DNA from: an uncultured Desulfobacteraceae bacterium
Lineage (GTDB): Bacteria; Desulfobacterota; Desulfobacteria; Desulfobacterales; UBA5852
Direction of reading: 5' to 3'
NCBI GenBank assembly: GCA_913060875.1
Contig: CAJXSL010000015.1
Span: forward strand, 1 to 64,000
Length of the DNA stretch: 64,000 nucleotides
The translations under genes and the position numbers were made by a program. The notes beneath the pieces are model-generated. The model was given only the letters and a program-made list of their open reading frames with translations, ran no database searches and had not been told where the DNA came from. Shown here one piece after another: positions 30,960-56,777 of this stretch (position 1 is its first letter; every line of letters begins with the position of its first letter).

Positions 30960-33230
30960 ATGGCATCCCTGGCACCATCCGATGTTGAGGCCGTCGACCG
31001 GATACTCGCACAAGCCTGGCTTGAAGACCGCGAGACCCTTTTCGAGCATGAAGTTTATCGGATCCTGAACCTGCTCGGAATGGAAACGCCAACCGTCGCA
31101 TTCGTCCGGCATGCGGCGGAAATCACCCCGCAAATTCTGGATCGTTTTTCACACGATACCCTGGTGATGAAAATCGTATCACCGGCCGTGGCCCACAAGA
31201 TGGCGGTCAGCGGCGTTCGCACCGTTCACCGGGATCTCGATTTTTTACAATTCAGCTGTGATCGCATGATCAGCGACGTCGCGTCGCAACACTGCCCTGT
31301 AGCCGGTGTTCTTCTGGTTGACCATATCCACTACACCAAAGATCTCGGCAATGAAGTCCTGCTTGGTTTCAGGGAAAGCGATGCCTTCGGCCCCGTCATT
31401 TCCTTCAGCAAGGGGGGCACCGACGCCGAGCACTTCGCCGAACATTTCTCCCCCCCGAACCTCATCCTGGCACCGATTGACGAAGCCTGGGCACGGGCCC
31501 TGTTGCAGTCCACGAAAATCTACCAAAAATATCTTCAGGAAGCCCGCAGTGACCATGTCGACCAGATCGTTCGGGCCGGCGTGCAACTGAGCCGCCTGGC
31601 CACTGATTTTTCCAATTTTATCCCCCGGACATCGCGCTTCATCCTGAAAGAATTGGAGATCAACCCGTTTGTTTTCGACCCCCACGGCCGGTTTGTGGCG
31701 CTGGACGGCTTTGCCACCATCGCTAAACGGACCGGGATCCGGCCCACGACGCCAATGGAGCCTTTCGACCAGTTGGCCCCTTTTTTCGAGCCCCGGGGCA
31801 TTGCCGTCATCGGCATCAGCCATACGGACAGCACCAAACCGGGCAATATCATCCTGGAAAATCTCCTGCGCCTGAAACGGCGGGATGTTTACGGGGTCAG
31901 CATCAAGGGCGGCCGCATCGAACTCGCCGGCCGGACCCAACCACTTTTCCTCTCCGTGCGGGATATCACCGAGCCCGTCGATCTGGCCGTGGTGGCCGTA
32001 CCGGCCGACCAGAGTGTTGCCGTCATCGAGGCCTGCGCCCACAAGGGGGTACGTGCCATAATCCTCATCCCCGGCGGGTTCAGTGAAACGCGCAAGGATA
32101 TACGGCTGGAGGAAGAAATCCGGGACCTCATCCGTCGTCATGGCATGCGGCTCATCGGCCCCAACTGCCTGGGGATCTTTTACAGCGGTGACGAGCGGGC
32201 TCCGGGCATCAACACGTTCTTCGTGCCGGAAGAAAAATTCCACGTTGATCTCCAAAAGAACAACAACGTGGCCATTCTGAGCCAAAGCGGCGCCCTGGGC
32301 ATTACCGAAATCTACAACCTGCGCAATGCCATTTCTCCCAAAGTCATCGTCAGTTACGGCAATCAGCTGGATGTGGATCCAGCCGACCTGGTGGCCTATT
32401 TCGACCGGGACCCCGAAGTGGATGTCATCGGCTGCTATATCGAGGGTTTCAAGGCCGGCGGCGGTAGGAAATTTTTCGACACCGCCCGGCAGACGCATAC
32501 GCCCATCGTGGTTTATAAGGCCGGGCGCACCGAGGCCGGAAAACAAGCCACGGAATCCCATACGGCCAGCATCGCCGGTGAATACGCAGTCGCCAAGGCC
32601 GCCATGAAGCAAGCGGGCCTCATTGTGGCGGAAACCATGATCGACCATGGCGATTTCATCAAAACGTTCGCCCTGCTGAAGGATTGCGACATCCGGGGCA
32701 ACCGCGTGGCCCTGGTCGCCAATGCCGGCTATGAAAAAACCTACGCCGCCGACAACCTCGGCCGTCTGCAGGTCGCCCCGCTGGATCCCCCCACACACGA
32801 AACGCTGGGAGGACTGCTCCCCTCCTATGTCAACGTCGATTCATTGCTGGACCTGACTCCCATGGCCGGAGATGCCCTGTATGGCGACTGCATCCGTGCC
32901 ATGCTGCAATGCGCTACGGTGGATGCCCTGATCATCTCCATCGTCCCCCACAGCATCCTCCTGCACACCACGGATGATGAAATCGCGCGAACTGAAGATC
33001 ACCTGGCCAACCGCATCGTCCGACTGGCGCATGAATTCAAAAAACCCATCGTGGTATCCGTCAACGTGGCCTTTGGGGCCGGCGCCGTCTATAACCGCTT
33101 CGGCCAGATCCTGGAGGCCGGCGGCGTACCGACCTTTCTCACCGCCAACCGGGCCATGATCTGCCTAAATGCCTTCGTGCACTATCACCTGACACGTCGC
33201 CAGGAAAAGCGGGACGCCTGGCTGGCATGA
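30960..33230 (+). CDS. acyl-CoA/acetyl-CoA synthetase (ADP-forming), fused beta-alpha form
   Basis: A 756-residue NDP-forming acyl-CoA synthetase. The ATP-grasp_5 part is at the N-terminus (about 10-250, LVMKIVSPAVAHKMAVSGV). It is followed by the CoA-binding Rossmann domain (about 265-400, PRGIAVIGIS, VPADQSVAVIEAC, LIGPNCLGIFY) and the succinyl-CoA-ligase-like domain with phospho-His in ESHTASIAGE. So the subunit order is beta then alpha, reversed from many alpha-beta fusions. It interconverts acyl-CoA, ADP and phosphate with acid, ATP and CoA, and so could make ATP from acetyl-CoA or activate organic acids. The ATG at 30960 follows TGGAGG; a GTG nine bases earlier is less likely. Confidence 0.88.
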   Translation: MASLAPSDVEAVDRILAQAWLEDRETLFEHEVYRILNLLGMETPTVAFVRHAAEITPQILDRFSHDTLVMKIVSPAVAHKMAVSGVRTVHRDLDFLQFSCDRMISDVASQHCPVAGVLLVDHIHYTKDLGNEVLLGFRESDAFGPVISFSKGGTDAEHFAEHFSPPNLILAPIDEAWARALLQSTKIYQKYLQEARSDHVDQIVRAGVQLSRLATDFSNFIPRTSRFILKELEINPFVFDPHGRFVALDGFATIAKRTGIRPTTPMEPFDQLAPFFEPRGIAVIGISHTDSTKPGNIILENLLRLKRRDVYGVSIKGGRIELAGRTQPLFLSVRDITEPVDLAVVAVPADQSVAVIEACAHKGVRAIILIPGGFSETRKDIRLEEEIRDLIRRHGMRLIGPNCLGIFYSGDERAPGINTFFVPEEKFHVDLQKNNNVAILSQSGALGITEIYNLRNAISPKVIVSYGNQLDVDPADLVAYFDRDPEVDVIGCYIEGFKAGGGRKFFDTARQTHTPIVVYKAGRTEAGKQATESHTASIAGEYAVAKAAMKQAGLIVAETMIDHGDFIKTFALLKDCDIRGNRVALVANAGYEKTYAADNLGRLQVAPLDPPTHETLGGLLPSYVNVDSLLDLTPMAGDALYGDCIRAMLQCATVDALIISIVPHSILLHTTDDEIARTEDHLANRIVRLAHEFKKPIVVSVNVAFGAGAVYNRFGQILEAGGVPTFLTANRAMICLNAFVHYHLTRRQEKRDAWLA

Positions 33231-52094: not shown

Positions 52095-53705
52095 ATGCAA
52101 GCATATAAAATCAAAGCGGTTCTCTTCGATTTCGACGGCACCCTGACCCAACCGGGTGCCCTCGACTTCCAGACGGTAAAATCCGCTATCGGCTGTCCCC
52201 CGGACCAGCCCATTCTGGAATTCATTGCGAGCCTCCGCGACGATGCCCGTCAGGCCGAGGCGCATGCCATCCTGCACGCGATGGAACTGAAAGCGGCCCG
52301 CCAATCCCGCCCCAACGGCGGGGTCGACGATCTCTTGCGCTATTTGAAACGCCATCGTCTGCCCATCGGCATGCTGACCCGCAACAGCCTGGAATCAGTA
52401 ATGACGGCCCTGCAACAGTTTTCCCACTTGTCCATCGATGATTTCGATGTGGTGATTACCCGGGACGATCCGGTGCGGCCCAAACCACACCCCGACGGGG
52501 TGCTTCTGGCCGCCGAACGTTTCCATGTCGAACCGCGCGAAATCCTGCTGGTGGGCGATTTCCATTTCGATATCGAAGCCGGCCGGCGGGCGGGCGCGTT
52601 GACCGCCTTCCTGGAAGGGGGCCATGGCGATCCGGGCGATAACCTCGTCTGCGATTTCCGGGCGCGTTCGTTGGCCGACATCATCCAAATCGTGCGCTGC
52701 GGCCTGCCCCTGCCCAACGGGAAATTCCCCAGCGACCTGCTGGAAGGCTTTTTCGGGCATTTAGAGCACGACGATGAACGCTTCCTGATCAAGCCGGGCA
52801 TTGGCGAGGACACGGCCGCCATCGACATGCACGACCATGACACCCTGGTGGTCACCTCGGATCCCATCACGTTCGTCACGGACAGGATCGGCTATTATAC
52901 AGTCCTGATCAACGCCAATGACATTGCCACCTCCGGCGCCACCCCCCAGTGGCTGATGACGACCCTATTGTTCCCGTCCGGCGCGACACCTTCGGAAATC
53001 TTTCAGGTCATGACGGACATCAATGATGCCTGCCAGCAATGGGGCGTCACCCTCTGCGGGGGCCACACAGAAATTACCGATGCGGTTCAGCGTCCGGTGG
53101 TGGTGGGAACCCTGGGAGCGGCTTTGCAGCGGCAGGACCTCATCGACAAACGCAACATGCAGCCGGGCGATCGTATCCTGCTGACCAAAGGCGTGGCCAT
53201 CGAAGGGACGGCCATCATCGCCAACGAGTTTACCGATCGCCTTCAAAACCTGGGTATGACCGCCGCGGCCATAGACGACTGCCGCCGCCTGGTTGACCAG
53301 ATCAGCATCCTGCCCGAGGCCGCCATCGCGGTCCAGTCACAGGGTGTGACCGCCATGCACGATGTGACCGAAGGGGGCTTGGCCACGGCTGTTTCCGAAT
53401 TAAGTTCTGCCGGTGGACACCAGCTTGAAGTCTACTGGGACGCCATCCCGGTTTTGGAGCAGACGGAGCAGGTTTGCCGGTGCCTCGATATTGATCCCAT
53501 GGGGCTGATCGGTTCCGGAAGTCTTTTGATCGTCTGTCGGGCGGAAGTGAGCGACAACCTGATGCAGGCCATCGGTGAGGCCGGCGTTGCCGTGGCGTGT
53601 ATTGGGGAAGTAAAACAACCCGGCCAAGGGGTCGCAGCGCTACGCGAGGGCGTCGCCGTTCCTTGGCCGGAATTCGAAGTAGATGAAATTACAAATCTTT
53701 TTTAA
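52095..53705 (+). CDS. HAD phosphatase fused to AIR-synthase/HypE-like domain
   Basis: A 536-residue fusion. Residues 1-205 are a HAD-like hydrolase: DFDGTLT (Asp12, Asp14), MLTRNS, RPKPHP with the Lys, and GDFHFD. Residues about 215-520 belong to the AIR synthase superfamily (PurM, HypE, ThiL, SelD): GIGEDTAAIDM, SDPITFVT, GGHTEITDAVQRPVV and AMHDVTEGGLATAVSE. HypE-like members bind ATP and activate a substrate. The pairing suggests phosphorylation and dephosphorylation or activation of one metabolite, not known to me. It lies 131 bp after the lysA-like gene and converges with the TetR gene. Confidence 0.82.
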   Translation: MQAYKIKAVLFDFDGTLTQPGALDFQTVKSAIGCPPDQPILEFIASLRDDARQAEAHAILHAMELKAARQSRPNGGVDDLLRYLKRHRLPIGMLTRNSLESVMTALQQFSHLSIDDFDVVITRDDPVRPKPHPDGVLLAAERFHVEPREILLVGDFHFDIEAGRRAGALTAFLEGGHGDPGDNLVCDFRARSLADIIQIVRCGLPLPNGKFPSDLLEGFFGHLEHDDERFLIKPGIGEDTAAIDMHDHDTLVVTSDPITFVTDRIGYYTVLINANDIATSGATPQWLMTTLLFPSGATPSEIFQVMTDINDACQQWGVTLCGGHTEITDAVQRPVVVGTLGAALQRQDLIDKRNMQPGDRILLTKGVAIEGTAIIANEFTDRLQNLGMTAAAIDDCRRLVDQISILPEAAIAVQSQGVTAMHDVTEGGLATAVSELSSAGGHQLEVYWDAIPVLEQTEQVCRCLDIDPMGLIGSGSLLIVCRAEVSDNLMQAIGEAGVAVACIGEVKQPGQGVAALREGVAVPWPEFEVDEITNLF

Positions 53706-54746: not shown

Positions 54747-55805
54747 TCAGACAATCCGCAATTGGATATCGCCATCCGTTGGCAGCGTTAATATCTCGCC
54801 CACCCGGCAGGCTGCATGCACGCCGGATGCCCGCAGGGCATCGACAAGGGCATCCGCCGTCTCCCGCTCCACGGCGGCCAGCAGACCACCACTGGTCTGG
54901 GGGTCAAAAAGAATCTCCTGGTGCCGGGATGGCCAGTCGCCGTCCATCCTCAAATAATCCTGCACCATGCGCCGATTGTGGGGATTGACCCCCGTATTGA
55001 CGCCCCGCCGATACATTTCAAGGGCGTCCCTCATCACCGGCAGACGGTCCATATGAAGCACGATCGACACCTGGGAAGCCTGCGCCATTTCAAACGCATG
55101 CCCCGCCAGACCGAACCCGGTGACATCCGTGACCGCGTGCACCTCGAAACGTTGCAGCGTTTCACAAGCCACACGATTCAACGTGGTCAGGTGGGCGATA
55201 CATTCGGTCAGCGCTTCGCCGGATACCCACCCCTTGATATTGGCATTGAAAAGGACCCCGCTGCCGACGGGTTTGGTCAATACCAGCACGTCACCGCCGC
55301 GCGCCCCGGCATTGGTCCAGATCCTGTCCGGATGGACAATGCCGTTGACCGCCAGTCCGAACTTGGGTTCCTCGTCTTCGATGGTGTGTCCGCCCACCAG
55401 CACTGCTCCGGCTTCGGTAATTTTGGCCACGGCCCCGGCCACGATACCATGCAGAATTTCGGGTGCCAGTTTCTTGGAGGGAAAGGCCACCAGGTTTAAA
55501 CAGGTAAGCGGGCGCCCCCCCATGGCATAAATGTCACTGATGGCGTTGGCAGCGGCAATCTGGCCATAGGTGAACGGATCGTTGACCGGCGGGGTAATGA
55601 AATCCGCCGTGGCCACAAGCGCCATGTCATCCGATAGCCGGTAGACGCCGGCATCATCACTGGTATGGAAACCCACCAGGAGATTGGGGTCTGCAACCTG
55701 AGGAAGTTGCCGGAGTAAGTCGCCGAGCCCGACCGGGTCGATTTTGGCCGCTCACCCGCAGGTTTTGGAAAGACTCATCAAGGTCGGTTTCTGAAACAGT
55801 TTCAT
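54747..55805 (-). CDS. selD: selenide, water dikinase SelD, selenocysteine-containing (TGA recoded)
   Basis: SelD makes selenophosphate from selenide and ATP, the selenium donor for selenocysteine and selenouridine. The gene starts at ATG 55805 and runs 352 residues, the usual length, only if TGA at 55752-55754 is read as selenocysteine 18. The N-terminus then reads MKLFQKPTLMSLSKTCG, Sec, AAKIDP. Sec18 and Lys21 sit exactly where E. coli has Cys17 and Lys20. The rest is intact: GFHTSDDAGVYRL, ATADFITPPVNDPF, GGHTIEDEEPKFG, DVTGFGLAGHAFEM and FDPQTSGGLL. A plain stop-to-stop reading begins at the GTG at 55676 and loses the catalytic part. A SECIS hairpin follows the TGA. The product helps make itself. 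Confidence 0.93.
55719..55754 (-). promoter_or_regulatory. bacterial SECIS element in selD
   Basis: Seventeen nucleotides after the UGA (55752-55754), CCC and GGG close a tetraloop GGUC (55734-55731 on the minus strand). A lower stem UCG/CGA (55741-55739 with 55722-55720) extends it. A G at the loop start and this distance fit bacterial SECIS rules. The GGUC loop is the same as I recall for E. coli fdhF, which binds SelB. Confidence 0.8.
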
Positions 55806-55987: not shown

Positions 55988-56542
55988 CTAACGCCCGAAT
56001 GTGCCGAACAGTTTCCTTATTTCAGCGGTTACGCGGTGATCGTTCTGCTGCAGATAGGCCCAATTCGCACTTTCCAACATCTCCGGCTTGCGGTCAAGCA
56101 CAATGGCGGCCGCCATTTGTGCGGCCTGGCCCGTCAGTTGGGCGCAGTGCTGAAAATGCGAACGCGATCCGTAAACCAGCGCCTTGGTCAACACGCGGCA
56201 GCAGGTTGCTTTGTAGGCCGCTTTGAACTGGTCGTGCAGTTCCGCTGCGGCCTGGCGTACGAGTTCACCGTTGCGATACCCGGGGCCCTGGCGCCCCAGA
56301 AACAAACCCAGCGCCAAAGCGCCGCCATTCAGGGCGCCGCACAGGCAGCCCCGCCGACCGAGGCCTTCCGGCAGGGCCGAAGCCAGCCTGATGGCCATGT
56401 CGGGCGCCAGCTCACCACCGAGGCCCTGGTTCAAAACCGTTAGCACGGCTTCGGCACACTGAAGTTGCCGGGTCATGAACAGGTTCTCGGCGCGACGTTG
56501 GATATCATCCAAAAGCGACCTTGTTTTCGAGCATTCGTTCAT
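55988..56542 (-). CDS. C_GCAxxG_C_C family redox protein
   Basis: A small cysteine-rich protein (184 residues from MNECSKTRSLLDD; frames to 56581 and 56593 are also open and no ribosome site decides). The family pattern is clear: QCAEAVLTVL with the first Cys, RGCLCGALNGGALALG for the GCxxG part, and ATCCRVL for the paired Cys. Later Cys lies in HCAQ. In other genomes a selenocysteine can replace one of these cysteines; here all are Cys. The function is unproven, probably redox or metal related. The neighbour selD makes a selenium link plausible (inference). Confidence 0.8.
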   Translation of the reverse strand: MNECSKTRSLLDDIQRRAENLFMTRQLQCAEAVLTVLNQGLGGELAPDMAIRLASALPEGLGRRGCLCGALNGGALALGLFLGRQGPGYRNGELVRQAAAELHDQFKAAYKATCCRVLTKALVYGSRSHFQHCAQLTGQAAQMAAAIVLDRKPEMLESANWAYLQQNDHRVTAEIRKLFGTFGR

Positions 56543-56777
56543 CGGTATGATCCGTGCTTTGGAATTCTTTCTAGGATTCATCGTTAGTCCCATGATGCCA
56601 AGTTATATAGGGTCCGTTCATAAATAGTAGAATACGCGCTGATAGGCCAATCCATTATATTAATCACACTTGAGGCGATAAAAAGCTTTTTTCAATACAA
56701 CAAACTTGCCGGGCGCAAAAACCGTCCCCCAGGGATGATGAAGGATAATTTCTCACGCCCCCACCCATAGACAAACA

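Follow-up and report, generated by a model that had tools for sequence, protein, structure and literature searches.

Introduction

Selenide, water dikinases (SelD) that contain selenocysteine (Sec) are well known in bacteria. Gursinsky et al. reportedly described a selDABC cluster in Eubacterium acidaminophilum in 2000, and this bacterium is said to harbor a second selD. As far as the accessible text of each source goes, Sec was present in 19% of the prokaryotic SelD proteins detected in a reference set (PMC4561486), SelD was named among deltaproteobacterial selenoproteins (PMC1794560), and Sec-SelD was the second most expansive family (PMC13188914). Two selD genes were described in 2005 for Photobacterium profundum, one of the Sec type and one of the Cys type, the latter next to ybbB (PMC1273633), and another Photobacterium carries selD_1 and selD2 (PMC9642325). 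A selenium cluster of YedE, YedF and DUF3343 has also been described (PMC5322559). For a Desulfobacterium with 31 selenoproteins, the accessible text names selD once and leaves its copy number unstated (PMC2702500). No statement of two Sec-SelDs in one bacterium was found in the literature searched, which was taken without supplements and most subscription papers, and we claim no priority.

We analyzed a stretch of 64,000 nucleotides (the window; contig CAJXSL010000015.1 of assembly GCA_913060875.1, positions 1 to 64,000) from an uncultured Desulfobacteraceae bacterium. A preliminary description had claimed that its selD is itself a selenoprotein gene with an in-frame TGA at 55752-55754, and the reading frame, the relatives, the Sec machinery and the SECIS element all support this claim. 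We put the probability that the gene encodes a genuine Sec-containing selenophosphate synthetase, the activity being putative, at about 0.96.

Reading frame and product of selD

The selD gene lies on the minus strand at 54747..55805. It starts with the ATG at 55805-55803, contains an in-frame TGA as codon 18 at 55754-55752 in the context KTCG-TGA-AAKI and, with readthrough, extends over 352 residues to a terminal TGA, ending at 54747. A full-length SelD is encoded from 55805 to 54747 only if the TGA at 55752-55754 is read through. The ORF obtained without readthrough starts at GTG 55676, has 309 aa and lacks the catalytic segment with the catalytic residue and the lysine.

The NCBIfam selD model TIGR00476 matched the readthrough product with 373.7 bits (cut-off 125) over residues 9-316; because the match begins at residue 9, the readthrough N-terminus lies within it. 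NF002098 was also passed (325.1 bits, cut-off 299). The best match among solved structures was E. coli SelD (PDB 3u0o, 216.2 bits), and in this alignment residue 18 fell on Cys17 and Lys21 on Lys20, so that the UGA at 55752..55754 occupies the place of the catalytic Cys. The coordinates and length in the preliminary description, which had extended the frame to ATG 55805 through one TGA, were exact. It had noted that the frame from 55676 lacks the catalytic N-terminus, and the 309-aa ORF excludes both residue 18 and Lys21. Its pairing of Sec18 and Lys21 with the E. coli residues was borne out on 3u0o, and the extra N-terminal residues, which it had proposed to compare with SelD families, align with TIGR00476 and 3u0o. 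An ordinary gene caller would lose the catalytic residue of this protein.

Conservation of the in-frame TGA

We searched 146 genomes of the order, the window genome included, with the window SelD protein, and 140 of them gave some match; the counts of listed matches refer to the stronger ones, with weaker matches lying outside. Among the matches listed, a TGA was present inside every SelD row that reached the N-terminus. The three rows without a stop among these matches (G003, G016 and G085) all begin past the TGA position, and one (G113) contains a TAG besides the TGA. In clade A, the group to which the window protein belongs, the context is LSKTCG-TGA-AAK with small variation, and the TGA was the catalytic codon wherever the sequence was read. 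Relatives at 60-71% identity retain both the TGA and the surrounding residues, which argues against chance. Many relatives have their TGA at this same codon, so a sequencing error here is very unlikely.

Cys-type SelD proteins were found outside clade A in Bacteroidales, other Bacteroidetes, Oscillospiraceae, Agathobaculum and Lentibacillus. Selenoprotein genes are recognized by a UGA that is kept in relatives or replaced by Cys, and here the TGA is found in relatives and Cys in more distant SelDs. One wider scan of genome contigs, which yielded 52 loci, revealed clade A TGA genes also in bins labelled Verrucomicrobia, Gemmatimonadetes, KSB1 and Bacteroidetes, although these labels may be wrong. 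At four loci in Verrucomicrobia-labelled bins (L067, L068, L073 and L109), a clade A Sec-SelD shares its SECIS core with the window gene, by transfer or mis-binning.

If the TGA ended translation or had arisen by a sequencing error, selD would be a pseudogene or would start at GTG 55676, from where the frame is indeed open for 309 aa. However, a protein started there would have neither the catalytic residue nor the lysine, relatives carry a TGA at this very codon, and selection acts on the hairpin that follows it, as described below. We therefore regard this explanation as highly improbable, and the reading as a Sec codon is preferred.

SECIS element

The SECIS hairpin of the window selD, placed on comparative evidence at 55724..55740 (minus strand), carries its apical GGUC loop (55731-55734) on a stem of 3+3 bp with one bulge. 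This loop starts 17 nt past the UGA and opens with GG, which fits the bSECIS model as far as the accessible text presents it (PMC13188914). The hairpin core in clade A is CCC-GGUC-GGG. The synonymous sites of codons 4 to 8 downstream of the UGA were nearly invariant among 47 distinct clade A sequences: Ile was encoded by ATC in 29/30 cases, Asp by GAC in 23/23, Pro by CCG in 46/47, Val by GTC in 44/46 and Gly by GGG in 43/46. At flanking positions, the fractions of the same codons were 0.50, 0.44, 0.46, 0.18 and 0.12, respectively.

Folding was compared with a null in which codons were redrawn under the same protein, using the 38 representatives that remained of 51 sequences after thinning at 90% protein identity. 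Codons 4-10 had a mean MFE of -8.93 versus -4.12 kcal/mol in the null (z -13.1, 0/500). For the wider stretch of codons 1-13, z was -9.5, and it ranged from -2.6 to +2.2 in six other stretches. The rows are related and not independent, and the sets for both the fold null and stem covariation were thinned at 90% protein identity. Ten rows (L043, L044, L087, L092, L104, L106, L111, L112, L116 and L137), in which the search pattern missed the site or hit an incorrect one, are absent from the codon counts, the fold null, the first tree and the stem covariation.

The outer stem occurs in two forms, which pair with one bulged C in 18/38 representatives (with an Asp codon) and without a bulge in 16/38 (with a Ser or Asn codon). 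Because pairing was one of the criteria for choosing the no-bulge set, the pair table of that set is biased towards the stem; in this set, T-A replaces C-G in two rows and A-T replaces G-C in one, and the next pair outwards is broken in 5/16. The outer three pairs were complete in 31/34 rows, against a shuffled mean of 18.9 and maximum of 28 (0/2000), after four ill-fitting rows of the 38 (L037, L047, L048 and L055) had been set aside beforehand. Two of these, L037 and L048, can form the stem with a five-base loop.

Folded as a single sequence, the window hairpin was not more stable than shuffles in four segments (z -0.87 to +0.82), and the minimum-energy structure of a 40-nt fold was in another register. 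RNAalifold found almost no consensus structure in the ungapped set, apparently because the two stem registers, with and without the bulge, alternate; counting the registers separately resolved this. With E values up to 1 allowed, Rfam showed no family in the vicinity of the UGA, and across the window only tRNAs reached gathering scores. Thus the SECIS hairpin that had been predicted at the expected distance stands on comparative grounds, namely synonymous constraint and covariation, with an insignificant single-sequence fold.

Selenocysteine machinery of the genome

The window genome comprises 5.88 Mb in 30 contigs, with completeness 99.73 and contamination 1.36. One tRNA-Sec exceeded the gathering score (75.6 bits against 47), and ARAGORN reported a tRNA-SeC with anticodon tca. 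There was one match to selA (616.4 bits) and one to selB over the cut-off (355.6 bits). The preliminary description had suggested looking for selA, selB and selC and had held that their absence would speak against it; all three are present. Three of 20 Fdh-alpha rows were over the cut-off for FdhA (formate dehydrogenase), and each of these genes has one in-frame TGA followed at 18 nt by a GGUCU-loop hairpin. These loops are close to the GGUC loop of selD at 17 nt, so that the same SelB would encounter similar loops in both. Seven relatives (G018, G021, G022, G028, G053, G086 and G137) each list two selB matches that exceed the cut-off and are nearly full-length.

Near-cognate readthrough of UGA occurs to some degree in bacteria, and an ordinary tRNA might thus place Cys or Trp instead of Sec at residue 18. 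Against this stand the complete Sec machinery and the selected hairpin, which shares its GGUC core with the FdhA elements of the genome; moreover, keeping a stop codon would be needless if Cys were wanted. We give reading by an ordinary tRNA hardly any chance, and insertion of Sec remains the preferred reading.

Neighborhood of selD

A C_GCAxxG_C_C redox protein is encoded directly upstream of selD at 55988..56593 (minus strand), with no TGA in frame. NCBIfam labels this family a (seleno)protein, and C_GCAxxG_C_C is among the selenoprotein families listed in the accessible text of two studies (PMC9312934, PMC13188914). The protein may be a partner of SelD that feeds selenium to it. Direct tblastn detected C_GCAxxG_C_C within 0.9 kb upstream of selD on the same strand in 9/29 clade A genomes (G000, G002, G004, G005, G006, G034, G036, G087 and G123, with five family codes); it was absent there in 20/29. 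Clustering of neighbors by longest ORF had yielded 6 genomes, with antisense ORFs masking real genes. By named clade A loci, the gene was upstream in 5/22; of these five, two are repeats of G002 and G123, and two are weak or cut.

The arrangement differed among genomes. G019 carries C_GCAxxG_C_C 7 kb from the clade A selD on the other strand, together with MauE-like and rhodanese-like genes, and in G123 a MauE/DoxX-like gene and a rhodanese-domain gene are followed by C_GCAxxG_C_C. On one strand of G006, the order is Se/S carrier, kinase-like protein, clade B SelD, YedF-like protein, C_GCAxxG_C_C and clade A selD.

At 52095-53705 on the plus strand, the window also encodes a HAD hydrolase fused to an AIRS/AIRS_C protein, which is below the cut-offs for both hypE (117.9 against 251.6) and selD (85.5 against 125). 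A gene like this fusion occurs near the clade A selD in G002, G004 and G005 (family F8). A codon-usage scan of the window for further TGA genes gave two hits, at 52397, opposite the HAD-AIRS gene, and at 32843. The scan missed selD itself, which indicates that it is insensitive.

A second Sec-SelD and the two clades

The window genome (G000) encodes a second SelD at C7:188718-189755 (L056:8716-9756), which is 48% identical to the window SelD, contains a single in-frame TGA at the corresponding position and matches TIGR00476 with 380.6 bits. Its cluster contains yedF (TIGR03527, 211.3 bits), a Carb_kinase-like protein, an Se/S carrier (PF11823), a TusA-domain ORF and yedE (TIGR04112, 484.6 bits). 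Its hairpin, CCAGG-GGA-CCUGG at 20 nt after the UGA, is unlike the clade A SECIS and is likewise strongly constrained in its group, clade B (z -13.3, 0/500 in the codon-randomised null); the clade B sets of 30 rows each used for the codon counts and the fold null include L090 and L101, which are outside clade B in the tree.

In a quick maximum-likelihood tree of 36/38 clade A representatives and 12/28 clade B rows, clades A and B each formed one side of a branch with SH-aLRT 100 and 100. A second tree with 38 clade A and 12 clade B rows gave 97 and 100, and L055 branched first within A. Both trees were quick, with long-branch warnings among other rows (L102, L110).

Among the matches listed, 31/146 genomes had a clade A row at at least 59% identity, and 13 others had one at 50-56%; from this second group, L055 (G063) alone has a position in a tree. 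With clade B defined by at least 66% identity to the C7 protein, both clades were present in 13/146 genomes by a strict bound (G000, G003, G006, G007, G015, G019, G030, G038, G048, G059, G075, G093 and G107) and in 16/146 by a loose bound that adds G063, G130 and G135. G059 and G107 have an incomplete clade A piece, that of G003 is split between contigs, and contamination is 7-9 in G003, G019 and G063. The window genome is the firm case of both clades, with the copies on 145- and 274-kb contigs. Two bins, which may be mixed, have three TGA SelD genes or pieces: two of clade B and one of clade A in G030 (C7, C37, C26), and two clade A-like and one of clade B in G063 (C310, C154, C63).

Alternatively, the C7 SelD could do the work, and the window selD could be a redundant transferred paralogue that is being lost. 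In favor of this, the C7 copy sits in the selenium cluster, and clade A shows the scattered distribution of transferred genes: within the order, 31 to 44 of 146 genomes have it among the matches listed, and bins with the labels of other phyla contain it too. However, the frame, catalytic residues and SECIS of the window copy are intact, and the SECIS is selected across the clade. Furthermore, G005, G013, G045 and G058, for example, list clade A with no clade B row, which suggests that clade A can apparently serve alone. We consider loss of the window copy unlikely and retain the reading of a functional Sec-SelD.

A known selenium trait was considered as the basis of a division of labor between the two SelDs and found no support: selenouridine synthase (ybbB) had none over the cut-off in the window genome, with one piece of 25.6 bits against 219.75, and yqeB had no match there.

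Discussion

The reading frame, homology, UGA conservation, SECIS selection, complete machinery and second copy were observed for the window selD; the insertion of Sec, the activity of the enzyme and a possible division of labor are what we infer. In the proposed mechanism, ribosomes would start at ATG 55805 and reach the UGA at codon 18, where SelB with Sec-tRNA-Sec would bind the GGUC-loop hairpin just downstream, resulting in insertion of selenocysteine. The Sec, in place of the catalytic Cys17, would act with Lys21 to convert selenide and ATP to selenophosphate, which would feed SelA. Because Sec is needed in SelD itself, such an enzyme would depend on its own product. With two Sec-SelDs, the clade A protein of the window and the clade B protein of C7, either could supply selenium for the making of the other.

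The evidence supports the interpretation, which is of an ordinary kind, and the paired Sec-SelDs are the part worth following. Some Desulfobacterales-like genomes may keep two long-separate Sec-SelDs for one known use, the Sec pathway, with clade B fed via YedE, YedF and the Se carrier, and clade A fed via a C_GCAxxG_C_C route and, in some genomes, rhodanese and a MauE/DoxX-like protein. We offer this as a tentative suggestion, with the odds still against it. If true, two Sec enzymes that supply each other's selenium would form a mutual start-up loop. Two Sec-type SelDs without yqeB or a selenouridine synthase over the cut-off raise the question of why there are two activating enzymes, and whether they have different selenium donors. 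The donor question is testable, as the two copies have different SECIS elements and one selB is over the cut-off.

The window gene shares with bacterial SPS2-Sec the Sec at the catalytic position, the hairpin after the UGA and the presence of selA, selB and selC in the genome. It differs in belonging to a separate clade with the signature TCG-U-AAK and its own SECIS, and in having a second Sec-SelD beside it in the genome. As far as the accessible accounts go, Photobacterium profundum likewise has two selD genes with different neighbors in one genome; however, its pair consists of a Sec gene and a Cys gene with ybbB, whereas the window genome has a TGA in each of its two genes and no ybbB over the cut-off. 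The YedE/YedF/DUF3343 cluster, as described in the accessible text, has its counterpart around the clade B copy of the window genome, whereas the window copy lies outside such a cluster and has C_GCAxxG_C_C as its neighbor instead.
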